DNA from: Halomicroarcula saliterrae
GTDB lineage: Archaea; Halobacteriota; Halobacteria; Halobacteriales; Haloarculaceae
NCBI RefSeq assembly: GCF_031624395.1
Contig: NZ_JAMQON010000003.1
Span: 310,001-374,000 of the forward strand
Direction of reading: 5' to 3'
DNA: 64,000 nucleotides
The notes under the pieces were generated by a model. It had not been told where the DNA came from. It saw nothing but the letters and a program-made list of their open reading frames with translations, and ran no database searches. The position numbers and the translations under genes were made by a program. This document shows, piece after piece, positions 29,082 through 43,906 of the stretch. How positions within the stretch are numbered: the first letter of the stretch is position 1; each line of letters opens with the position of its first letter.

Positions 29082-32000
29082 ATGAACGGCGTTCGCTCGC
29101 TGGCCGCCGTGCTCCTCGTGGTCGGGGCCGTTGCCCTCGCGGGAACGGGGCCGCTCACCGGGACTGCGGCGGCGGCCGCCAACAGCGCGACCCTCACGAC
29201 GACGACTGTCACGGCCGGCAACTCGGCCGCGGTGACCGTCGCGGACGACCCGGCGACGGCCGACCCCGGCTACACGGCCGTCGCGTCGGTGGACTCGACG
29301 TACGACGCCGACGGGACGGACCTCTCCGGCACGAACGCGACGGCCGACGCGGAGACGATCAGTATCGACACGAGCGGGGCCGAAACCGGAGAGTACACCG
29401 TCTACGTCGCGAACGTGACGACGACGCCGGCCGGGGGCACCGACCTCTCGACGTGGGCGAACAGCACGGCCGACCAGGTCCTGACCGTCAACGGTAACGA
29501 GACGGTAACGGGAACGGTGACCGACGGGGCGAGCGGCGAGGCGCTGTCGGGCGTCGAGGTCGAGGTGGACGGCGAAGTCGCGGACACGACGGACGCAAGT
29601 GGCGACTACGACATCGAGGTGGTGAACGGCGAGACCGTCGACCTGAGCGCCGAGACGACCGTCGACACCGCCGACGCGGGCGACGTGACGATTGCGAACA
29701 CCACGGCGGTGACCGTTGCGGGGTCGACGACGCAGGACCTCGTGTTGTTCGCCGAGCACTCGGGTTCGGGGACGAGCGAGCGGCCCTACAACGTCTCGAA
29801 CGCCTACGAGTTGCAGGCGATGAGTCAGGACCTCGATGCGGACTATCAGTTGGTCGAGGACGTCGATGCGAGCGGGACTGCAGACTGGAACGATGGGGAG
29901 GGGTTCGACCCGGTCGGGACGGCAGATGACGTTACTGATCCGAATCCGGCGACCATGTTCACCGGGTCCTTCGACGGACAAGACCGGTCGATAACGGGTC
30001 TCTCGATCAACCGCTCTAACGAACTGGCCGTCGGACTGTTCGGTGCGGCAAGCGGTCTGACAGTTTCGAACGTCTCGCTCGTCGACCTCAACGTGACTGG
30101 GGCGTCGCTCGGTGACGTTGGAGAAATCACCGCGACTGGCGGACTAGTTGGGGTATCTGCTGGCCTCGACGCGTCTTCGATTGACACGTCCGGTTCGGTA
30201 AGTACTGGTCACGTACAAGGTGGCCTCGTCGGCGGTTGGTTTGATTCAGATAACCCGAAGTCTCTCGAACTCAACAACGTCAGTTCGAGCGTCGACGTGA
30301 CCAGCAATGAGATCACGTACGCTAGTGGTGGAGTCGTCGGATTCTGGAGGGGTCAAGAAACGATCGAGGACTCTCGGGCAACCGGTACTGTCGTTGGCAT
30401 AGGGGCTGGCGCTGGCGGATTTGCTGGGTCTCTCGGTCACGCGGAACTCACCAACGTTTCGGCGACCGGAACCGTGCGGCCGCCGGACGGTAAACAGGTC
30501 AACAGAGCTGGCGGGCTCGTTGGGTGGCTCGAAGATGGAAACATTAGCCGCTCGGCTGCAACCGGTGATGTGAGCTCTGGCGACGGAAATTACGCTGGCG
30601 GCTTGATCGGTGATGCCGCCGGGAGTGTTTCTATCGAGGAGTCGTACGCGACAGGGAACGTGACCGGTAGCAGTGCTGTCGGTGGCCTTGTTGGAACCGG
30701 TGCCAAGGAGATTACGAATTCCTCTTCGACCGGGACGGTTCACAGTAACAACAGTGCTGGTGGTCTTGTCGGAAGCAGTGCGGATCTCGTCTTGAACTCC
30801 TACGCCGCAGGCTCCGTCGACGGCAGCGAAGTCGGCGGTATCACCGGCAACTCAGTCGACGAGATGACGAACGTCTACTGGAACGAGAGCACCGCTGACG
30901 AGGCCGTCACTTCCGGTGACGCTACCGGAGCAACTGGTCTCACGCCCGCACAAATGTTCGGCATGAACGCTACCGACAACATGGACGGACTCGACTACGA
31001 AACAACGTGGCTCGCCGTCGACGACGAAGACACGTACCCAGTACTGGGCTGGCAGGTCGACACCTACGATCTCTCGCTCGCGGACGACGACATCAACGTC
31101 GAAGACATCACCGAGGCAACGGTCGACGTTACACTCTCGGACGGCACGGAGACCACCGCAACCGAAACGTCGACCTACGACACTGAAGATAACGTAACGG
31201 TCGACGCAGGAACGGTCACCGCCAACACCTATGGCCCCGACACCGTGACCGCGACGGCTGGCGGACGCTCGGATGCCGCCGCGATCACCGCCCGCGATTC
31301 GGACTTCAACGTCACGCTCGACGAGCCCCCGTCGAGCGTCGACGCGGGCGAAACCTACGAGTTCGAGGCGACCGTCGAGAACGTCGGCAACGCCGAGGGG
31401 ACGAAAAACGTCGCGCTGGCATTCGGCGGGACCGAGCTAACCAACGAATCGGAGACGCTCGCCGCCGGTGGGACTGCAACTATCGCTGTCGACTACGAGA
31501 TTCCCGAGGACGCAGCTACCGCCGCGTCGGTCGACCTCGACGCGAGTACGCCCGACGACGAATCGACGGCTGGCGTGCGGATCGACGGCTTCGAGACGGT
31601 CTCGGGGACGCTGACCGACGGTGCGACCGGCGAGGCGCTGTCGGGCCTCGACATCGCGGTCGATGGAACGGTTCGGGACACGACCGACGCGAACGGCGAC
31701 TACGAGATCGAGATCACCAACGGGTCGACCGTCGACCTCGCGGCGACCACGACAATCGAGGACGCCGACGGCGACCCCGAGATCACCGCCACCGAGACGG
31801 TCACCGTCGACGGGTCCACCCAACAGGACCTCGAACTGTGGGCCGAACTGGAGGGATCGGGCACTGAGAACGACCGCTACAACGTCTCGAACGCTTACGA
31901 GTTGCAGGCGATGAGCCAGGACCTCGATGCGGACTATCAGTTGGTCGACGACGTGGATGCGAACGCGACTGAAGACTGGAACGACGGGAAGGGATTCGAC

Positions 32001-35000
32001 CCCGTTGGGACAGCGGACGAGCTTACCAATCCAGATACCGCGCCCATGTTCGCAGGGTCCCTCGATGGACGAAACCGGACGATAACAGGGCTCAATATTA
32101 ACCGCTCGAACGAGCTATTCGTCGGGCTCTTCGGTGCAACCGATTCAACGACGATACGGGACCTCTCGCTCACGAACGTGGATATCCGTGGTGCATCCGA
32201 GGAAGACGTGGGAGGGAGTACGGCAACCGGTGGGCTCGTCGGTCTATCCGGAGACCTCACTGTATCCTCGGTCTATGTCTCCGGGGCTGTCGAAACGGGC
32301 TACTCTGCTGGTGGTGTCGTCGGGAGCAATTACGGGGGAGCAATCGATGACGGTCCGATTCTTGTCTTCAGCGATGTCACGTCGGAGGTTGGCGTCACTA
32401 CCTCTGCCAACAATCGCGGTTCTGCCAGTGGCGGCGCTATCGGATTCTGGGGTGGACCAGTGACGATTACGAACTCACGGGCGACCGGAGATGTCCTCGG
32501 TAGGGGTGATGACGTCGGTGGGTTCGCCGGATGGATCGGTACTACTTGGGATGAAGTGGAGCTGTCTACGATCTCGAACAGCTCTGCGACGGGGAACGTC
32601 ACGGCATCGGGCGGTGGATCTATTGGATCTGCTGGCGGGCTAGTCGGAACACTATACAATGCGGTCACCGACAGTGTCTCCGCGACCGGCAACGTAAACT
32701 CCGGTGGTGGCGATCGTGCTGGAGGACTAGTCGGTGATCCCGATTCAGTAACTCGTATCAATAGCTCGTATACGACAGGCGATGTCACTGGTGCGGATGA
32801 TGTCGGCGGACTGGTCGGGAATAGCGCAGATGAGATCTCAAACTCGTACGCCGCAGGTTCCGTCAGTGGTGAAACCGTCGCTGGTATCGCCATCAACTCG
32901 GTCGGAGAGATGGACAATGTTTACTGGAACACCAGTACGGCCGCAAATGCCGTCACTTCCGGTGACGCTACCGGAGCAACTGGTCTCACCCCCGCCCAGA
33001 TGACCGGTCCAGACGCAGTCGCCAACATGGCCGGACTCGACTACGACAAGACGTGGCTCGCCGTCGACGACGACTACCCACTGCTCGCGTGGCAAGTCGA
33101 CAGCTACGACCTCTCGCTCGCGGACGACGAAGTCGACGTGAATAACACCACCGAGGCGACGGTCGAAGTCACCCTCCAAGACGGCACGGGGACCACCGCG
33201 ACCGACACGTCGACCTACAGCGCCGACGGACCCAACGTCTCGGTCGACGCGAGCACGATTACGGGCGAGGCCTACGGCCCCGACACCGTGACCGCCACCG
33301 GAGGCGGGCTCTCGGACGTCGCGGCAATCACCGCGCTCGATTCGGACTTCCGGGTCGCTCTCGCAGACGCCCCGGCGAGCGTCGACGCGGGGTCGACCGC
33401 CACGTTCAACGCACGCGTCGAAAACGTCGGCAACGCCGCAGGGACCGAGAACGTCTCGCTCGTGTTCGACGGCGCCGAGTTCTACAACCAATCGGTGACC
33501 GTCGCCGCGGGCGAGACCGAGAACGTCACCGCCGACTACGCGATTCCGGCGGCCACCGAAACCGGCACGGCCGCCCTCAACGCGAGCACGCGGACGGACC
33601 ACGCGACGACGACCGTCGCCACCAACGGCAACGAGACGGTCACCGGCCGGGTCGTCGACGGCGCGACCGGCGCGGCGCTGTCGAACCTGACGGTGACGGT
33701 CGACGACGGAACGAGCACGCAGACCGCCGAGACCAACGCGGACGGCGTCTACGAGCTGTCGGTGGTCAACAACCGGACGGCCACGGTCTCGGCCACCACG
33801 ACAGTCGACGGGGCCGAAGGTCCCGAGGAAATAACGGGAACAGCGACCGCGACAGTCGCCGGCGAGACGACCGTCGACCTCGACCTGTGGCCCGACCTGG
33901 CGGGCGAGGGGACGAGCGAGCAGCCCTACACCATCTCGACGGCCCGCGAGCTGGCGGCGATGAGTCAGGACAGCGATGCGAACTACACGCTCGTCTCGGA
34001 TGTGAACGCAAGCCAGACTGACGAGTGGGACGGCGACGGATTCACGCCGATTGACTTCGATGGCGGCACACTCGACGGCGACGGCTACACGATTACCGAA
34101 CTACAACTCGCTAACGAGAGCTTCTACACTGGACTGTTCGCGAACATATACGCGGATAGTCTGGTGACGAACCTCTCGCTGGAGAACGCGACTGCACTCG
34201 GTGTCGACGGCGGGTCGACCGGACTGCTCGCCGGAACCAGTACCGACGCCACGATCGGGCGGGTGCGCGTGACCGGAACTATCGACGCCGGCGGATTCGA
34301 CACCGGCGGTCTCGTCGGATTCAATTCGGGCGAGATACGCAATTCGACAGCGAACGTCTCTCTCGAAGGAGATTCACAGCGTGTCGGTGGGCTCGTCGGA
34401 CGGAACGGAAACGGTGGCACGCTGTCTTCTTCGTTCGCCGTCGGCAGCGTCGACGGCACCGGCACGCTGGGCGGGCTCGTCGGCGACAACAGCGGCACCG
34501 TCGAAAACGCCTACTGGGACATCGACACGACTGGGCAGGCGGCCTCGGCCGGTGGCGGCACCCCGCTCACGACCGCGAACATGACCGGGCTCGACGCCAC
34601 CGAGACCATGACGCTGGACTTCGAGACGACGTGGGCGCCCTCTACGGACTACCCCGTCCACCGCTTCGATGAGGCCAACGCCGACCCCGTCTTCGCCGTC
34701 CGGAGCGTCGACCTGCCCGAGTACGTGGCCCCGGGCGAGCCGTCCGCGTTCAACGCGACGCTGGAGAACATCGGCACGGCGAACGGAACGAAGACGCTCG
34801 TACTTTCGATAGACGGCACCACGTCCGAGCGTAGCGTGACGCTCGCGGCCGGGTCCAACGAGTCCGTCAGGTCGTTCGTCCTTCTGCCAGCCGATTTCAC
34901 CGACGGGAACTACACTGCCGTCGTCGAAACGCCCGACGACGAACTGACCGACAGTATCGAGGTTCGCAGCCGCGAGACGCTCTCGGGAACCGTCACCGAC

Positions 35001-38000
35001 GGCGCGACGGGTGAGCCGCTGAACGACACCCCGGTCACGGTCGACTACGGCGGCGGCCAGCAGGCGACTGTCCGAACAGATTCGGGGGGGACCTACAGTA
35101 TTCCCGTGTTCAACGGTACAGCGGTCACCGTCTCGGCGAACACGACTGTCGACGCCGTCGGCGACCCTCGAATCGACGACTCCGAGACGCTGACCGTCGA
35201 CGGAAGCGAGACGGCCGACCTCGAACTGTGGCCGGAACTGGCGGGCAACGGCACCGAGGCGAACCCCTTCGAAATCTCGAACGCCCACGAGTTGCAGGCG
35301 ATTGTGCAAGAGACAGGCGCGAAATATACGCTCGTCGATGATGTGGACGCGAGTGAGACCGACGAGTGGACGGTTTCGGCGTTCTCGGAGAAACGCGGAT
35401 TCCGCCCGATAGCCTTCGGTGGCTCACTCGACGGTGACGGGCACGCAATCACTGATATGACGGTGTTCGGTGACGGCGATGCTCCCGGTGGCTACCTTGG
35501 CCTGTTCGGGACGCTCAACGGAGCCCGCGTCTCGAATCTCTCGCTCGAAAACGCGACGACCGACGCTACCGGCGGAAGCTACACCGGCCTGCTCGTGGGG
35601 TCGGCCTACAACGGGGCCACGATTGCGAACGTCAGTATCACCGGGACGATGCGGGGGAACGCGACCAACGTTGGACCGATTGGCGGAATCAGTGGCGGTG
35701 CGATTCGTAACGTCACGGCCGACGTCGACGTCGGCGGCAACGGGACCAACGTCGGCGGACTCGTCGGCTGGAATCTCGGAGCGATGGCCGACACGTCCGC
35801 CGCGGGCTCCGTCTCCGGAAACGGTTCGGTCGGCGGGCTGGTCGGCACCAACACTGGCGACATCGAGACGTCGTACGCGGTGGGAGCCGTGGCCGACGGT
35901 GACGGCGCCGGGGGACTCGCCGGGAGAACAACCACCGGCGCGACCGTCTCGAACGCCTACTGGGATATCGACTCCACCGGACGGACCGACTCCGCCGGAA
36001 ACGCGACGGGGCTCACGACCGACGAGATGACCGGTGCAGACGCGGATTCCGCTATGGACCTCGACTTCGACGGGCCGTGGCACGTCACGCCCGGCTACCC
36101 GGCGCTCGACGAGTACGAACACGCCGGCAACGGGACCGACGACGACCCCTACGAGGTCGGCGACGTCGACGAACTCCAGCTGGTGGCGAACGACCCCGCG
36201 GCCACCTACACGCTCACGCGGGACATCGACGCGAGCGAAACCGCCGACTGGAACGACGGCGCCGGGTTCGAACCGATCGGCATCGACTCCGTCCGGCAGT
36301 TCAGCGGCTCGTTCGACGGTGCCGGACACGAGATCACCGGGCTGACGAGCACCGATAGCGAGGCAGACGGCGTCGGGCTCTTCAGCGAGAGTTCGGGCGA
36401 GATTACGGACGTGGCTCTCTCCGCGGTCGACATCGATGGCCGGCGGTCGGTCGGCGGTGTGGCCGGTGGCGTCTACGACGGCGGAACCGTTCGGAACGTC
36501 TCCGTGAGTGGCACGGTCGTCGGCGTGACGAACGTCGGCGCTCTCCTCGGGGAGAGCGTCGAATCCGACGTGCGCGATTCGTGGACGCGCGGGAGCGTGA
36601 CCGCCGTCGGGGCGAACGCCGGCGGGCTCGTCGGGCGGAGTGAGACGTCGACGGTGACGAACGCCTACGCCGGCGCGAACGTGACCGGGAACGTCAACGT
36701 CGGTGGACTACTCGGGGCGACAGAAGACGGTGGGACGGTCTCGAACTCGTACGCGACCGGACCGGTCGACGGAGACAGTGGCGAGGGCGGACTCGTCGGC
36801 AGCGCGGTCGGAGCGAACGGCGGGACCGTCGAGGACTCGTACTGGGATACGTCGGCGACCAACCAGTCGACTTCGGCGGGCGGCGCGCCGCTGACGACCG
36901 AGACCATGACCGGCGCGAACGCCACCGAGGCGATGGCCCTCGACTTCGGCGGGTCGTGGGTGGCCACGGCCGGCTATCCGCGGCTCCGGTGGGAGGCCGC
37001 GTCACTCTCCCTGCGACTCGACTCGACGGCCCTCGAACCCGGCGAGTCGACCGACGCGACGGCCGTGCTCGGCCTCGCCGACGGCTCGACCGTCTCGGTG
37101 ACCGGGACCGCGAGCTATTCGAGTGGCGACCCCGGTGTCGCGACAGTCGGGAACAGCACCGTCACCGCCGGGAGTGACGGGACCACGGACATCGTCGCGA
37201 GTGCGGGCGGTCTGGAGGCGAGAGTCCGTATTGCGGTCGAGTCACCCGATTCCGGAACTGATGGCAGTGGCGGTACTGCTGGGGGTGGCAGTCGCGGTGG
37301 CGGTGACGATGACTCCGGCAGCGGGGGCGCTGGTGGCGGTACCAGTGGCGGCGCGCCACCGAGCCCCGGGTCCGACGGGGGCCCGGCAGGCACCGATGCG
37401 GACGGAGGCGTCACGGTCAACACGACGGCTACCGCCGACAGCCCGACCAGTATCGACCTCGGCGAGGCAGTTGGCGACGCGGGCAGCGGGATACGCTACG
37501 AGCGAGTCGCCCTCACGCTCGATGCGGACGCCGAAGTGACCTTCGGGGCCCGCCCGACCGCGCCGGAGAGACTGCCCAGCGGGACGCCACCGCTCGCTCC
37601 CGACGACGGCGGGCGCGCCGACCTCGCTCTCTCGTACGTCGAATTCACAGTCCTCGCCGACGGCGGCGACGCGAGCGACCGCGTCACCGCGGCGACGGTC
37701 GGATTCAGCGTCGACACCGCCAGCCTCTCGGAACACGGGCTCGGTGCCGAGGACGTCGCACTCTACCGATACGATGCCGACGCGGGCGAGTGGACGGAAC
37801 TCGACACCACCGTTGCAAGCAGGGATAACGGACGGGTTCGCTTCGAGGCGACGAGCCCGGGCTTTTCGGTGTTCGCCGTCGGTCCGTCGACCGCCGTTCG
37901 CGGCGACTCCGCGACGGCGGGTGCGCCTGACAACGCGTCGGCGGGGCCGCAATCACCGACAGAGAACGCGGACTCCGACCCGGCGACCACCGACTCAGAG

Positions 38001-38096
38001 CGAGAGACGACGGCGGCGGACGGCCCCGGATTCGGTGTCGGTGTCGCGCTCGCCGCGCTCGTCTCGGTGGCGTTGTTCCGCCGCCGACGGACATAG
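29082..38096 (+). CDS. Giant GLUG-repeat surface protein with PGF-CTERM anchor
   Basis: This 3,004-residue protein has a signal peptide (1-33) and a repeating plan. Four carboxypeptidase-regulatory-like modules start near 140, 837, 1517 and 1964 (ETVTGTVTDGASGEAL type). Three CARDB-like modules (VENVGNAEGT type) lie near 743, 1425 and 1873. Five GLUG-repeat blocks begin near 226, 924, 1606, 2053 and 2347, each with ELQAMSQDLDADY-like openings and runs of GGLVG. A Gly/Ser linker (about 2720-2775), a PGF-pre-PGF domain and the tail GPGFGVGVALAALVSV-x-FRRRR complete it. The tail is the archaeosortase A signal, so the protein should be lipid-anchored at the S-layer. Adhesion is likely but unproven. 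Blocks 1 and 2 contain nearly identical DNA. Confidence 0.92.
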   Translation: MNGVRSLAAVLLVVGAVALAGTGPLTGTAAAAANSATLTTTTVTAGNSAAVTVADDPATADPGYTAVASVDSTYDADGTDLSGTNATADAETISIDTSGAETGEYTVYVANVTTTPAGGTDLSTWANSTADQVLTVNGNETVTGTVTDGASGEALSGVEVEVDGEVADTTDASGDYDIEVVNGETVDLSAETTVDTADAGDVTIANTTAVTVAGSTTQDLVLFAEHSGSGTSERPYNVSNAYELQAMSQDLDADYQLVEDVDASGTADWNDGEGFDPVGTADDVTDPNPATMFTGSFDGQDRSITGLSINRSNELAVGLFGAASGLTVSNVSLVDLNVTGASLGDVGEITATGGLVGVSAGLDASSIDTSGSVSTGHVQGGLVGGWFDSDNPKSLELNNVSSSVDVTSNEITYASGGVVGFWRGQETIEDSRATGTVVGIGAGAGGFAGSLGHAELTNVSATGTVRPPDGKQVNRAGGLVGWLEDGNISRSAATGDVSSGDGNYAGGLIGDAAGSVSIEESYATGNVTGSSAVGGLVGTGAKEITNSSSTGTVHSNNSAGGLVGSSADLVLNSYAAGSVDGSEVGGITGNSVDEMTNVYWNESTADEAVTSGDATGATGLTPAQMFGMNATDNMDGLDYETTWLAVDDEDTYPVLGWQVDTYDLSLADDDINVEDITEATVDVTLSDGTETTATETSTYDTEDNVTVDAGTVTANTYGPDTVTATAGGRSDAAAITARDSDFNVTLDEPPSSVDAGETYEFEATVENVGNAEGTKNVALAFGGTELTNESETLAAGGTATIAVDYEIPEDAATAASVDLDASTPDDESTAGVRIDGFETVSGTLTDGATGEALSGLDIAVDGTVRDTTDANGDYEIEITNGSTVDLAATTTIEDADGDPEITATETVTVDGSTQQDLELWAELEGSGTENDRYNVSNAYELQAMSQDLDADYQLVDDVDANATEDWNDGKGFDPVGTADELTNPDTAPMFAGSLDGRNRTITGLNINRSNELFVGLFGATDSTTIRDLSLTNVDIRGASEEDVGGSTATGGLVGLSGDLTVSSVYVSGAVETGYSAGGVVGSNYGGAIDDGPILVFSDVTSEVGVTTSANNRGSASGGAIGFWGGPVTITNSRATGDVLGRGDDVGGFAGWIGTTWDEVELSTISNSSATGNVTASGGGSIGSAGGLVGTLYNAVTDSVSATGNVNSGGGDRAGGLVGDPDSVTRINSSYTTGDVTGADDVGGLVGNSADEISNSYAAGSVSGETVAGIAINSVGEMDNVYWNTSTAANAVTSGDATGATGLTPAQMTGPDAVANMAGLDYDKTWLAVDDDYPLLAWQVDSYDLSLADDEVDVNNTTEATVEVTLQDGTGTTATDTSTYSADGPNVSVDASTITGEAYGPDTVTATGGGLSDVAAITALDSDFRVALADAPASVDAGSTATFNARVENVGNAAGTENVSLVFDGAEFYNQSVTVAAGETENVTADYAIPAATETGTAALNASTRTDHATTTVATNGNETVTGRVVDGATGAALSNLTVTVDDGTSTQTAETNADGVYELSVVNNRTATVSATTTVDGAEGPEEITGTATATVAGETTVDLDLWPDLAGEGTSEQPYTISTARELAAMSQDSDANYTLVSDVNASQTDEWDGDGFTPIDFDGGTLDGDGYTITELQLANESFYTGLFANIYADSLVTNLSLENATALGVDGGSTGLLAGTSTDATIGRVRVTGTIDAGGFDTGGLVGFNSGEIRNSTANVSLEGDSQRVGGLVGRNGNGGTLSSSFAVGSVDGTGTLGGLVGDNSGTVENAYWDIDTTGQAASAGGGTPLTTANMTGLDATETMTLDFETTWAPSTDYPVHRFDEANADPVFAVRSVDLPEYVAPGEPSAFNATLENIGTANGTKTLVLSIDGTTSERSVTLAAGSNESVRSFVLLPADFTDGNYTAVVETPDDELTDSIEVRSRETLSGTVTDGATGEPLNDTPVTVDYGGGQQATVRTDSGGTYSIPVFNGTAVTVSANTTVDAVGDPRIDDSETLTVDGSETADLELWPELAGNGTEANPFEISNAHELQAIVQETGAKYTLVDDVDASETDEWTVSAFSEKRGFRPIAFGGSLDGDGHAITDMTVFGDGDAPGGYLGLFGTLNGARVSNLSLENATTDATGGSYTGLLVGSAYNGATIANVSITGTMRGNATNVGPIGGISGGAIRNVTADVDVGGNGTNVGGLVGWNLGAMADTSAAGSVSGNGSVGGLVGTNTGDIETSYAVGAVADGDGAGGLAGRTTTGATVSNAYWDIDSTGRTDSAGNATGLTTDEMTGADADSAMDLDFDGPWHVTPGYPALDEYEHAGNGTDDDPYEVGDVDELQLVANDPAATYTLTRDIDASETADWNDGAGFEPIGIDSVRQFSGSFDGAGHEITGLTSTDSEADGVGLFSESSGEITDVALSAVDIDGRRSVGGVAGGVYDGGTVRNVSVSGTVVGVTNVGALLGESVESDVRDSWTRGSVTAVGANAGGLVGRSETSTVTNAYAGANVTGNVNVGGLLGATEDGGTVSNSYATGPVDGDSGEGGLVGSAVGANGGTVEDSYWDTSATNQSTSAGGAPLTTETMTGANATEAMALDFGGSWVATAGYPRLRWEAASLSLRLDSTALEPGESTDATAVLGLADGSTVSVTGTASYSSGDPGVATVGNSTVTAGSDGTTDIVASAGGLEARVRIAVESPDSGTDGSGGTAGGGSRGGGDDDSGSGGAGGGTSGGAPPSPGSDGGPAGTDADGGVTVNTTATADSPTSIDLGEAVGDAGSGIRYERVALTLDADAEVTFGARPTAPERLPSGTPPLAPDDGGRADLALSYVEFTVLADGGDASDRVTAATVGFSVDTASLSEHGLGAEDVALYRYDADAGEWTELDTTVASRDNGRVRFEATSPGFSVFAVGPSTAVRGDSATAGAPDNASAGPQSPTENADSDPATTDSERETTAADGPGFGVGVALAALVSVALFRRRRT
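29789..29880 (+). repeat. Intragenic direct repeat, copy 1 (GLUG block opening)
   Basis: About 90 bases encoding NVSNAYELQAMSQDLDADY and following residues match 31880-31970 with only a few mismatches, including third positions, indicating recent duplication or gene conversion. Confidence 0.85.
30903..30943 (+). repeat. Identical 41-bp direct repeat, copy 1 (end of GLUG block 1)
   Basis: GCCGTCACTTCCGGTGACGC and the next 21 bases are identical to 32949-32989, encoding AVTSGDATGATGLT. Confidence 0.9.
31880..31970 (+). repeat. Intragenic direct repeat, copy 2 (GLUG block opening)
   Basis: Second copy of the repeat at 29789-29880, inside the same reading frame. Confidence 0.85.
32949..32989 (+). 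repeat. Identical 41-bp direct repeat, copy 2 (end of GLUG block 2)
   Basis: Second, identical copy of 30903-30943 at the matching position of the next block. Confidence 0.9.
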
Positions 38097-39125: not shown

Positions 39126-40325
39126 ATGCCCTCCCAAAGTTCCACTCAGCGGATATCGACCGACCGGCTCGTGTTGGCAGTCACGGGACTCCTCATCACG
39201 GCCGTCCTGGTCGTCGCGGTCTGGTCGGCGGGCGTTTCGTCCGTCGAGAAGCCGCCGCCAGTCGACGTAAACGTCAGCGAGCGCTACCAGTCCCTCGACG
39301 GTATCGAGGCCACGCGGACGACCGTCATCGAGCGAAACGGGACGGTTCAGAGCAGGACGGCGTACGACGCGACGACAGTCCCGACGACGGGAGAGCGGCG
39401 GCTGCGGCTCAGCAGCGGCACCTCGCGGTACGATCTGCGCGTCTCGAACGGGTCGGTGCTGTGGCTCCACGACGAGGACCGAGCGGTCGTGACACGGATT
39501 CGGCTCAGCGGGCCGTCGCCGACGACCGGTACTGCCGACAGGGTCCAGCGCCTGCTCGTCAGGGCGAATCTCACGGCCACCAGCGCCGCGAGTGACACGC
39601 GCCCCGCTGTCGAACCGCTCCCGGTCGTTCCCGAAGACACGTCCCCGGGCGGCCCCGGGCTCGACACCGAGTACACCGTGCGCTACGGGGGCAACGAGAC
39701 GGTCGACGGACGGGAGACGTACGTCGTCCACGTCACGCCCGGCCCGAACCAGTCCGAGGCCGGCTATCGGCAGACGCTGTGGATCGATACGGAGTGGTTC
39801 TACCCGCTCAAGCGACAGACGACGTGGCGTGACGACGGGACGCGGACGGAGCTGACCACGACCTACACGGACGTCACGTTCAACCCCGACATCCCGGCCG
39901 GGACGTTCACGCCCGAAATCGGGCCGAACACGACCGTCGAGCCCACCGACGCACCCGAGACGCAGGTGTACCGTCGGCCCAGTGCCCTGCGGGCGAACAC
40001 CACCGTTCCCGTGCCGGAACCGACCGTCCCACCGTCGTACGAGCTGGCTTACGCCACACACACCGACGGCTCTGTCCAGGGGGTCGGACTGCGCTACGTG
40101 AACCAGACGAGCTGGATTACGGTCTCGAAGTACAACTTCACGTACCCCGTGCCCGACGGCGGCGAGCGGCGGTATATCGACGGTCGGCCGGCTCTCCTCA
40201 CCCGCGGGTCGACCGTGACGCTCTCGTGGAACTGTGGGACGTATCGGTACACGCTGCGTGGCTCCGGCGTGACGGCCGACCTGCTGGTCGCGGTCGCCCG
40301 GTCGGTCGGCTGTCCCGGAGCCTGA
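39126..40325 (+). CDS. LolA-like envelope protein with N-terminal anchor
   Basis: The 399-residue protein has one N-terminal helix (LVLAVTGLLITAVLVVAVWSAG) and a large extracellular domain. ATRTTVIERNGTVQSRTAYD, SRYDLRVSNGSVLWLHDED, and the YRQTLWIDTEWFYPLKRQTT / DVTFNPDIPAGTFTPEIG pair are the signature of haloarchaeal outer-membrane lipoprotein-sorting (LolA/RseB-like) proteins. The role in a cell with no outer membrane is unknown; lipid or lipoprotein binding on the outer face is inferred. It lacks a lipobox. TATA-like TTTTAATTCC lies upstream. Many NxT sequons suggest N-glycosylation. Confidence 0.85.
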   Translation: MPSQSSTQRISTDRLVLAVTGLLITAVLVVAVWSAGVSSVEKPPPVDVNVSERYQSLDGIEATRTTVIERNGTVQSRTAYDATTVPTTGERRLRLSSGTSRYDLRVSNGSVLWLHDEDRAVVTRIRLSGPSPTTGTADRVQRLLVRANLTATSAASDTRPAVEPLPVVPEDTSPGGPGLDTEYTVRYGGNETVDGRETYVVHVTPGPNQSEAGYRQTLWIDTEWFYPLKRQTTWRDDGTRTELTTTYTDVTFNPDIPAGTFTPEIGPNTTVEPTDAPETQVYRRPSALRANTTVPVPEPTVPPSYELAYATHTDGSVQGVGLRYVNQTSWITVSKYNFTYPVPDGGERRYIDGRPALLTRGSTVTLSWNCGTYRYTLRGSGVTADLLVAVARSVGCPGA

Positions 40326-40571: not shown

Positions 40572-40597
40572 TCGGTCGCCCGTGATTGGTCACGGAC

Positions 40598-40969
40598 GTG
40601 AGTGAGGACCCGGCGCTGGGCGAACTTCTCGACCTGCTTAGCGACGAGTACGCCCGGGACATCCTCGCAGCAGTGAGTGAGAAACCAATGTCCGCCAAAC
40701 AACTCGCCACCCAGTGCGACATGTCAGAGCCGACCGTGTATCGCCGTATCCGCCTGTTACGAGAGCACGATCTGGTGGAGGAACAGACCAAGATAGAGAC
40801 CGGAGGGAACGATTACAACGTGTACGCGGCGACGCTGTCGGGGTTCTCGATGCGACTGGAGGACGGGACCTTCGACGCGACTGTCGAGCGGCGCTCCGCG
40901 CCGGCGTTCCCCGGCCAGAACGAGGCCGACACCGCGGACCGGTTCAAGAAGATGTGGGAGAACCTGTGA
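40598..40969 (+). CDS. Winged-helix transcriptional regulator
   Basis: The 123-residue protein is one winged-helix domain: LGELLDLLSDEYARDILAAV, then KQLATQCDMSEPTVYRRIRL as the recognition helix and a C-terminal acidic tail. It belongs to the ArsR-like regulators found widely in haloarchaea next to a small DUF7521 membrane protein. The GTG at 40598 is chosen because the TATA box lies about 28 bases upstream; a TTG at 40586 is less suited. Its stop is one base before the next gene, so the two are cotranscribed. A palindrome just upstream of its TATA box may be its own operator. Confidence 0.87.
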   Translation: MSEDPALGELLDLLSDEYARDILAAVSEKPMSAKQLATQCDMSEPTVYRRIRLLREHDLVEEQTKIETGGNDYNVYAATLSGFSMRLEDGTFDATVERRSAPAFPGQNEADTADRFKKMWENL

Positions 40970-40970
40970 G

Positions 40971-41282
40971 ATGAGTTCGATACCGGCGCTGGTCGACTGG
41001 CTCATCGTCGCGCTCGCCGCCGGTTCGACGGTCGTCGGCAGCTACGTCGGCTATCAGGCCTACCGGGGGTACCGCCGGCACGACAGTCCGACGATGCAGT
41101 ACCTCTCTCTGGGGTTGATATTCCTGACGGCGGTGGCGTTCAGCATCGCCTTCGTCGGGTCACTGCTGCTCAGAGAGGGGATCGTTCCGATGCGCTTCCA
41201 GCAGTCGCTCACGCTGGTGACGCGCACCTTCCAGTTTCTCGGCGTGGTGTTCATCGCGTATTCGCTCCACCGACGAGAGTAG
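40971..41282 (+). CDS. DUF7521-type membrane protein
   Basis: The 103-residue protein has three hydrophobic helices (LVDWLIVALAAGSTVVGSYV, LSLGLIFLTAVAFSIAFVG, FQFLGVVFIAYSL) joined by short charged loops. Its size, helix pattern and constant position after an ArsR-like regulator match the haloarchaeal DUF7521 family. The pair may form a membrane signal system in which the small membrane protein affects the regulator; this is inference, with no direct evidence in sequence. ATG follows the regulator stop by one base. Confidence 0.82.
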   Translation: MSSIPALVDWLIVALAAGSTVVGSYVGYQAYRGYRRHDSPTMQYLSLGLIFLTAVAFSIAFVGSLLLREGIVPMRFQQSLTLVTRTFQFLGVVFIAYSLHRRE

Positions 41283-41358: not shown

Positions 41359-42336
41359 TCACTCTTCCGTTTCGTTCACCACTGTGACGGCCGACTCGTC
41401 GAGGTCGAGCGCGACGCTGTCGGGATGTTCGGACGCGTTGCGGGCCTCGAACTCGCCGGCCGTCCTGATGTTCTCCTCGTCTATCTGTATCTCGACCCAC
41501 GAGTGGACGACCGTCTCCGCGTCGCGGTCGACGGTCAGCATGACCGAACTCCCGTTCCCGTCGGGGCGCTGGAGTTCGACGTCGACGCGGCCGTCAGCGG
41601 TCGCTTCCGTGACAGTCGCCCGAAGCTCCGTGGCGTCGAGGTGTGCCCGCACGTTGTAACTCGTCTGTCCGTCGGCAGCGACGAGACGCTCTATCAACGC
41701 CCGGTCGGCCTGGTCCAGCACGCCGATGTCGTCGGTGTAGTTCAGGCTCACCTCGTCGATGTCCGCGCGGGCAGTCCGCACGTCGACCGTCTCGTTGGCG
41801 AGGTCGACTGTCCCCCGAACCGACGGGAGGCAATCGTCGGCGGGTCGAACGTGGATACCGGCGATATCCAGCGGCTCGTCGCGCGCCGTGGACTCGTAGT
41901 ACTGATTGACCTGTACTTCGAGCCGGTCGTACGCACCGAGGCCCGCACGAGTGCCCGTCTCGTCGACGACGAGCTCGGCGAACCGCTGGCGGCCGACCTC
42001 GTCGAACGCCGCGCCGTCGTGGTGTGAGACCAGCGTGACGGTCACGTTCCCGACCTGATGGCTGGTTCTGTTGCGCTCCGGACTGTCGAGGCGCAGGACG
42101 CCGCTGCACGTGCGGTCGGCTTGCTGGAGGGTGTACTCCCCGTCGCCGGTCCCGCTCACCGTCACGTTGAACTGCCGTTGGTCCGCCTCGATTTGCGTGC
42201 CGTTCGTCTCGTTTGCGGTATCCGGTTCCGCGTCGGCGGGCAGACCGGCACCTGCGATGACCGCGGCGCCGCTGGCCGCGAGGACCACGGCCGAGACGCC
42301 GAGGGCGTACATCGCGAGTCTGTAGTCACGTTGCAT
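41359..42336 (-). CDS. Secreted or membrane-anchored protein of unknown function
   Basis: The 325-residue protein has an N-terminal helix (LAMYALGVSAVVLAASGAAV) and an acidic extracellular domain with about ten NxT/NxS sequons. Two cysteines, in DRTCSGVL and DDCLPSVR, could form a disulfide. No family is recognised. It is divergent from the secreted protein at 42592 and shares with it the spacer that holds the 11-bp-phased GAAACG repeats, so both are probably under the same control. ATG at 42336 is preferred to a GTG nine bases upstream. Confidence 0.7.
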   Translation of the reverse strand: MQRDYRLAMYALGVSAVVLAASGAAVIAGAGLPADAEPDTANETNGTQIEADQRQFNVTVSGTGDGEYTLQQADRTCSGVLRLDSPERNRTSHQVGNVTVTLVSHHDGAAFDEVGRQRFAELVVDETGTRAGLGAYDRLEVQVNQYYESTARDEPLDIAGIHVRPADDCLPSVRGTVDLANETVDVRTARADIDEVSLNYTDDIGVLDQADRALIERLVAADGQTSYNVRAHLDATELRATVTEATADGRVDVELQRPDGNGSSVMLTVDRDAETVVHSWVEIQIDEENIRTAGEFEARNASEHPDSVALDLDESAVTVVNETEE

Positions 42337-42486
42337 TACTCTCACTCCGTTCGCATCGATTCTGTCGTGTCATTGGCTGCTCCGGCAACAGTCGAGCGGG
42401 GATTCGCAGAGCGGTCACGGACACCGTGGCGCCGCCGTCGACTGTTGCACTCGTGGGTTGCAGGAAAGTGCTTGTAAATCGCCGTT

Positions 42487-42533
42487 GGAAACGCCTGTGA
42501 AACGCGACTGAAACGCGTTTCACGGGTGTTTCA
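42487..42533. repeat. Helically phased GAAACG/TTTCA repeat array (probable operator)
   Basis: GAAACGC recurs at exact 11-base intervals (GGAAACGC 42487, TGAAACGC 42498, TGAAACGC 42509). Inverted TTTCA elements follow at 42518 and 42529, again 11 apart. The last direct and first inverted copies form the 14-base palindrome TGAAACGCGTTTCA (42509-42522). The array sits between divergent secreted-protein genes. Confidence 0.75.
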
Positions 42534-42591
42534 CCGCCTGAAAGCGGTGAAAACCATCAGATTCATACTGCCGATGTTTCGACAACGACCC

Positions 42592-43239
42592 ATGGACTCG
42601 GTCGCGCCCTCCCGACTGGCGTTGGTCCTCTCGCTGGTCGTCCTCGGCGGTAGCCTCGCGGTGTTTGGCAGTGTCAGTGGGGTCGTCCCCGACCGGACCC
42701 ACGAGCTCGAAATCGAGGACGGTGCCCTCGTCGCCGCGACCGGCGGCGGACAACAGCAGGTGCTGGTCGAAGACGTACGCACAGTCGTCCGAATCGAAAT
42801 CAGCCGGCAAGACGGCTATCACGTCGTCCGAACGGTCGACCGTGAGCCGACAGCCGTGCGAACGCGGGTTCGAGTGCGGGCACAGCGTATCGTCGCCGAC
42901 GCGGAGACCGTCGGCGGAGACGTCCCGGCGACAGACAGCGCGGCGTACGCTGTCCGTCGGATTCCGTCGGGCCTCCCGAGCGACCGCGCGGCGGTCGTCG
43001 GTGCCACACCCAACGGCTCACTGCGGACGGCGATGGAACCCAACGAGTCCGCGTTCGTTCTCCGGGCGAACGAGACCACGGACACCGTCGTCTTCGAGCG
43101 GCGCGAGCCCCGATGGAGTGACGACCGCGTCCTCGTCGTCGTGACGCCCGACGGAACCGGGGCACAGTACAGCGTGGTGGTCAACCTCCGCACCGAGACC
43201 GTCGAAGCACTCGTGCGACTCGACAGGGGTGACCGATGA
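42592..43239 (+). CDS. Small secreted protein of unknown function
   Basis: The 215-residue product has an N-terminal hydrophobic segment (LALVLSLVVLGGSLAVFGSV) serving as signal or anchor, then an extracellular domain with TVVRIEISRQDGYHVVRTVD and YAVRRIPSGLPSDRAAV. I do not recognise a family. It begins about 60 bases after the GAAACG repeat array; an in-frame ATG 18 bases upstream is possible. A gene for a membrane-bound helix-turn-helix protein follows 124 bases downstream on the same strand, and the two may work together. Confidence 0.65.
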   Translation: MDSVAPSRLALVLSLVVLGGSLAVFGSVSGVVPDRTHELEIEDGALVAATGGGQQQVLVEDVRTVVRIEISRQDGYHVVRTVDREPTAVRTRVRVRAQRIVADAETVGGDVPATDSAAYAVRRIPSGLPSDRAAVVGATPNGSLRTAMEPNESAFVLRANETTDTVVFERREPRWSDDRVLVVVTPDGTGAQYSVVVNLRTETVEALVRLDRGDR

Positions 43240-43363: not shown

Positions 43364-43906
43364 GTGAGACGGACGCGCTCGCGCTCCGAACTGTTCGCTG
43401 CGGGTGTCCTCGTCACCGCCACGGCGGTCCTGGTCACACAGTTCCTGACCGCGACACCGACCGTCGCCGTAGCGGGTGACCAGAGCGTGCGAGCCGGGAC
43501 CCTCGGCTGGCGTTTCACGCTCCGCGACGTGGCTGTCGTCGCGGTCACGGCGTGGGCCGCCGGAGTGAGCGCGACGGTACTCCTCACTGGCGGTTCGACG
43601 GCGGCCGCGAACGGGACAGCTACGGCGCGAGACACGGAGACACAGGCGTCTACGGACCGTTCCAGCGGTGAGCTACTGCAGGCCCGTCGGCGGGAGTGGG
43701 AGACCGTCTCGGACCGGCTCGCGAGCAACGAGGAACTGGTGTACCAGACGGTGTTAGACGCCGACGGCGTCCTGCCACAGAGCGAGATCGTCGACCGGAC
43801 TGACCTCTCGAAAGCGACGGTCAGCCGAACGCTCGACAGTCTGGAAACCAGAGACCTCGTCGAGCGAAAGCGCCGCGGGATGGGGAACACGGTCCTGCTC
43901 ACGTAG
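43364..43906 (+). CDS. Membrane-anchored winged-helix regulator
   Basis: The 180-residue protein has two N-terminal hydrophobic helices (ELFAAGVLVTATAVLVTQFL and VAVVAVTAWAAGVSATVLL) and a C-terminal winged helix: NEELVYQTVLDADGVLPQSE, DLSKATVSRTLDSLETRDLV, ERKRRGMGNTVLL. The layout is that of haloarchaeal one-component regulators held in the membrane, thought to sense a signal outside and act on promoters inside. The start is a GTG. It lies downstream of the secreted protein and near the phased GAAACG array, which could be its target; this is inference. Confidence 0.85.
   Translation: MRRTRSRSELFAAGVLVTATAVLVTQFLTATPTVAVAGDQSVRAGTLGWRFTLRDVAVVAVTAWAAGVSATVLLTGGSTAAANGTATARDTETQASTDRSSGELLQARRREWETVSDRLASNEELVYQTVLDADGVLPQSEIVDRTDLSKATVSRTLDSLETRDLVERKRRGMGNTVLLT

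Follow-up and report, generated by a model that had tools for sequence, protein, structure and literature searches.

Between the divergent genes sec and div, both of which encode predicted exported proteins, lies an array of five GAAAC half-sites in a single 11-bp register (42488–42532, unstranded, in the window, the whole 64-kb stretch of DNA that we analyzed). This array is very probably the autoregulatory operator of wH, a predicted membrane-anchored winged-helix protein encoded downstream of sec, with several wH subunits binding one face of the helix from the membrane. That wH is the cognate regulator of the array is well supported by comparative evidence, because the two co-occur, because the array follows the sec/wH/div module through rearrangement and forms a single site per genome, and because paralogous winged-helix loci are free of it. 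The phasing beyond chance, the exclusive 11-bp period, the invariance of the SKATVSR recognition helix, and the joint loss of the array with other parts of the module in one genome argue for the same reading, as does the fact that a neighboring helix-turn-helix (HTH) gene (40586) and a methyltransferase gene are not conserved at the locus.

The sequence-only reading had described three GAAACG words at 11-bp steps (42488, 42499, and 42510), two TTTCA words 11 bp apart (42518 and 42529), and a palindrome, and all of these are present. The phasing is stronger than it had claimed. If each half-site is placed by its 5' G, as read on its own strand, then the positions are 42488, 42499, and 42510 (forward strand) and 42521 and 42532 (reverse strand): all five share one register, and the exact 11-bp steps run through the strand switch at the central palindrome TGAAACGCGTTTCA (42509–42522, unstranded), which is perfect and is the most conserved core of the array. 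Two further TGAAA words that had been grouped with these repeats (starting at 42539 and 42548, and spanning 42539–42552 on the forward strand) do exist, but we rejected them as members of the array: they are 9 bp apart, both lie outside the 11-bp register, and only one is kept. (The first sits in a stretch of about 9 bp that is missing from most Haloarcula relatives; the conserved one is the GAAAACC that adjoins the TATA-like block of sec.) We also considered and rejected CRISPR-like repeats as the identity of the array. Another word, GAAAG, is found 24 bp ahead of the array, immediately beyond the TATA-like block of div (42464–42468 in the window, and equivalent positions elsewhere), and is kept in both of the main gene layouts.

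When its five units are scored together, the array reaches 25 out of 25, while the chance maximum was 19 in 60 first-order Markov simulations of the whole window and 20 in 3000 simulations of the local intergenic sequence. Also, the pattern GAAAC-N6-GAAAC-N6-GAAAC-N2-GTTTC, with up to 3 mismatches, had no occurrences in 100 shuffles. Chance or low-complexity repetition without function can be raised for any repeat as a general possibility, but given these simulations and shuffles it is hardly credible here, and the conservation of the array across the class already refutes it.

Within the window's genus (the GTDB genus of Haloarcula, 32 genomes), the exact pattern GAAAC-N6-GAAACGCGTTTC was found in 11 genomes, all of them among the 12 that encode wH and only beside wH, and in none of the 20 genomes without wH. 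This supports the earlier proposal that the membrane winged-helix protein at 43364 is the regulator. In the twelfth wH genome (G020), wH is truncated (residues 49–180) and neither sec nor the array is present, so the pattern is not missing from close relatives that have the same genes. In an alignment of the 11 loci, the mean pairwise identity was 0.81 in the array, as compared to 0.68 in the coding start of sec, 0.59 in the leader of div, and 0.39 in the spacer after the TATA; the two TATA-like blocks had identities of 0.71 and 0.79. A sequence-only profile of the array matched the locus with E values of 1e-14 to 3e-8, and nowhere else in the 32 genomes scored better than 0.03. Thus, each genome that carries the array has, in effect, just one.

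Searching with the wH family, we obtained 53 named loci, of which 49 are haloarchaeal (from Haloarcula to Natrinema, Halorubrum, Haloferax, Natronomonas, and others). Across 46 orthologous upstream regions, the mean best score was 22.6 with a period of 11 and 15.4–16.7 with the other periods from 7 to 16. A score of at least 22/25 was reached by 37 of the 46 regions at period 11 and by none or one at each of these other periods. The pattern upstream of orthologues is thus conserved across Halobacteria, and exclusively with the 11-bp period that had been noticed in the window. The half-site consensus (from 217 distinct units) is T-GAAAC-G-(C/G)-(G/C)-T-T. Arrays comprise about four to six units, and the position of the strand switch shifts between lineages. 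Paralogous winged-helix loci lacked the array (best score 15–18).

To measure co-occurrence we used a sample of 391 genomes from across the class, with cut-offs of E = 0.001 for the array and 1e-20 for wH; the query for the wH search was one hand-written consensus-like sequence. The array was found in 65 genomes, wH in 77, and both in 64. In other words, wH was detected in 64 of the 65 genomes with the array versus 13 of the 326 others (P = 4e-59, Fisher test, ignoring phylogeny). The one array genome with no detected wH is G335. In the other direction the link is not absolute, as 13 genomes have a wH homologue and no array match; some of these may carry degenerate arrays that fall below the threshold. 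There were 71 places where an array shared a contig with wH. In 38 of them, the center of the array lay 63–138 bp upstream of the wH match; in the others, it lay 407 bp upstream (one place), 726–1822 bp upstream, behind sec (26 places), or just downstream of wH (6 places). So, across relatives, the array adjoins the wH gene, as in an autoregulated operon.

Two more distant loci have related features. In a Candidatus Diapherotrites locus (L147), a wH homologue with an altered recognition helix is preceded, at a distance of several hundred bases, by a weak GAAAC-type repeat (18/25, at about 62–120). In a Candidatus Altiarchaeales locus (L148, 2579–4444), outside of Halobacteria, a wH-like protein comes after a sec-like one, and there is no GAAAC array. 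From the latter locus, the pairing of sec with wH may be older than the operator.

Profile searches found that sec, wH, and div travel together as a three-gene module that most genomes of the class lack. As in the window, div lies on one side of the array and sec and then wH on the other in 14 named loci. In a second layout (31 named loci, five of them without a detected div), sec lies on one side and wH and then div on the other. In one named locus, sec lies on one side and div, with wH beyond it, on the other. The gene order is thus rearranged between lineages, and the array stays between divergent promoters. In several of the loci where sec and wH are adjacent, the stop codon of sec overlaps the start codon of wH as ATGA. 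By-eye comparison of loci with the second layout found that a further, more degenerate array often precedes div, and that it adjoins the same CAACGG...TATA...CTTTC block as the probable div promoter of the window. The div genes of the two layouts are probably homologous (hhalign probability 87.6, E = 3.5e-6).

The module seems to be mobile: two copies lie on one contig of genome G015 (loci L015 and L038), and another copy (L132) is on a plasmid of Halostella pelagica. In Halorubrum rubrum and Halorubrum halodurans (L099 and L100), wH is 65–66% identical to the window's and the gene order is that of Haloarcula, whereas the other Halorubrum loci have the other gene order and a wH of about 45% identity. 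For this reason, a horizontal transfer of the module is probable.

These data also bear on whether the array might be the operator of a different, unlinked regulator of the module, with wH having other targets or signals. Action in trans is common among archaeal regulators, a wH homologue without a detectable array is present in 13 genomes, and another regulator that travels unseen with the module could in principle explain the co-occurrence. Nevertheless, this seems unlikely because none of the genus genomes that lack wH has the exact array and because the array stays with the module through rearrangement while the linked HTH gene is not conserved. It is also less economical to posit an unlinked regulator that has only one target throughout Halobacteria than to posit wH itself.

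On both sides, the array abuts a conserved block that is probably a core promoter. The block for sec, GAAAACCATCAGATTCATACTG (42549–42570, forward strand), is the one with an identity of 0.79. Its TATA-like element TTCATA (42562–42567) is about 27 bp before the ATG at 42592, and this spacing fits a leaderless transcript. The block for div (42464–42487, reverse strand) has the TATA-like element ATTTACAA (42472–42479) and CTTTC (42464–42468), and the same TATA/CTTTC block is found ahead of div in the second layout. (A scan for bacterial sigma-70 promoters carries no information for archaeal DNA.) With the array between these divergent TATA-like blocks, it would lie outside of either transcript in the layout of the window. 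Thus, although the palindromes could fold, a role of the repeats at the RNA level, whether as structured leader or as processing element, is very improbable. The half-site is also conserved letter by letter and not as compensating pairs.

The wH gene (43364–43906, forward strand) encodes 180 amino acids. A hydropathy scan found hydrophobic segments at residues 10–28 and 56–74, and almost all orthologues retain them; these predicted membrane segments would be separated by an external loop of about 27 residues, and the basic N terminus suggests that both termini are cytoplasmic. Residues 119–179 form a C-terminal winged helix that matches Pfam PF24034 (DUF7343, a domain of unknown function; E = 3.8e-13, 49.5 bits versus a cut-off of 27.6). 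The protein also matches MarR_2 (36.6 bits versus a cut-off of 27), and the domain resembles the domains of MarR and CodY, with MarR structures among the top Foldseek matches. One mark of the MarR family is a soluble dimer with a helical dimerization domain; in wH, two predicted membrane helices precede the MarR-like domain. In the literature that we searched (subscription journals were outside the search), there was no description of DUF7343, DUF7345, the GAAAC motif, or the module.

The recognition helix of wH, SKATVSR, is near-invariant at array-bearing loci. At two Natrialba loci without the array, it reads SEATVSR (K→E), and non-haloarchaeal relatives of wH with other changes in the recognition helix likewise lack arrays. 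That a change in the recognition helix tracks the loss of the array is suggestive, with few independent events; the K→E change in Natrialba is probably one event.

The structural matches of wH also include AspA and TubR, which are winged-helix centromere-binding proteins, and a phased multi-unit array that occurs once per genome, with a membrane protein as its likely binder, could be a membrane-tethering or centromere-like site. In that case, wH would anchor the locus and any control of transcription would be secondary. We view this as quite improbable because the array always sits between the module's divergent promoters and its distances to the core promoter blocks are tightly kept, and because a module that most genomes of the class lack does not have a general chromosomal function.

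The other two proteins of the module match no Pfam family. Sec (42592–43239, forward strand, 215 amino acids) is predicted to be exported and anchored by its N terminus. A structural model (mean pLDDT 81.6) has an N-terminal helix and an alpha/beta extracellular part; within residues 84–214, a helix packs on a beta sheet. A fold search with residues 84–214 gave moderate matches to the N-terminal region of copper amine oxidase (Z = 8.4), YpeB (Z = 6.8), and the vibriolysin propeptide (Z = 4.8). This loose likeness to a PepSY or cystatin-like fold in the modeled structure is a lead only; if true, it would suit a sensing or inhibitor domain. Div (41359–42336, reverse strand, about 325 amino acids) is also predicted to be exported and has an N-terminal hydrophobic segment.

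Other genes lie beyond div in the window. An ArsR-like HTH gene and then a gene for a small DUF7521 membrane protein occupy 40586–41282. We rejected the HTH gene as the cognate regulator, as it is not conserved at array loci elsewhere, and the same lack of conservation holds for the methyltransferase gene. Further away, 39126–40325 encodes an exported protein that weakly resembles LolA-like and MucB/RseB domains, and an open reading frame of 3004 amino acids (29082–38096) encodes a giant exported repeat protein whose C-terminal hydrophobic segment is followed by arginines.

We propose that wH is held in the membrane by its two N-terminal transmembrane helices, with the C-terminal winged helix in the cytoplasm. 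Each subunit would contact one GAAAC word. Subunits on four to six half-sites (five here) would bind cooperatively as neighbors along the same face of the helix, and the words change strand at the central palindrome. From its position between divergent core promoters, the array would let bound wH control the two transcripts together, div on one side and sec-wH on the other, and because wH is downstream of sec in the latter transcript, wH would regulate itself. Thus, of the two envelope genes that the sequence-only reading had named as targets, sec and div both stand, but the targets would be three, with wH as the third. A role as sensing partner or as regulated output would fall to the extracellular domain of sec, and perhaps to div.

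Two features slightly favor activation by wH over repression: both TATA-like elements are weak, and each has the array directly on its upstream side. Repression, through a block of TBP/TFB, is the less favored alternative. A more ambitious possibility is that this is a new type of archaeal signaling module, in which membrane-held wH polymerizes along a phased, strand-switching operator, pulls its own promoter to the membrane, and reads the state of the cell surface directly into the expression of surface proteins, with the extracellular domain of sec as the gate. We offer this only tentatively and consider it doubtful. In any case, the regulator, its probable operator, and its probable whole set of targets can be named from the sequence, and some of the genera concerned contain laboratory haloarchaea; the phased multi-site operator offers a direct test of cooperative DNA binding by a protein that is confined to the membrane.

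Several known systems resemble this one. The winged helix of the bacterial activators ToxR and TcpP is N-terminal, whereas wH has a C-terminal DUF7343 domain after two transmembrane helices and has no match to an OmpR-type domain. ToxR and TcpP bind a target promoter from the membrane, by means of an OmpR/PhoB-type domain and a single transmembrane segment (PMC8546550), and the ToxR box, TNAAA-N5-TNAAT, was read as the cooperative binding of two ToxR (PMC7496328). The likeness to ToxR/TcpP (with their partners ToxS/TcpH) is in the membrane-anchored winged helix, the partner with an extracytoplasmic domain, and the short A-rich words of the operator, which in ToxR/TcpP form direct repeats (PMC7496328, PMC8546550), but the putative operator here consists of four to six half-sites, spaced at 11 bp and with a strand switch.

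Among the archaea, wH fits the broad definition of the transmembrane transcription regulators (TTRs), which have a DNA-binding domain and predicted transmembrane region(s) in one chain and are, by prediction, widespread in archaea (PMC10269533). This is a descriptive class, and in the portions of that paper available to us, we found no operator or regulon of the phased-array type (PMC10269533). Another archaeal comparison is to ArnR and ArnR1 of Sulfolobus acidocaldarius, in what describes itself as the first study of archaeal membrane-bound regulators (PMC6396743). These one-component regulators oligomerize, have an N-terminal HTH and a putative HAMP domain, and bind paired operator boxes (TCGAC-N5-GTCGA) that lie upstream of the BRE/TATA, with both boxes needed for binding (PMC6396743). 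The wH system would share with them a membrane regulator, a multi-box operator, and oligomers, but the winged helix of wH is at the C terminus and its putative operator is a phased GAAAC array at 11 bp. The wH system thus appears to work like ToxR/TcpP or ArnR and is a member of neither family, as the type of domain, its position in the protein, and the operator all differ.
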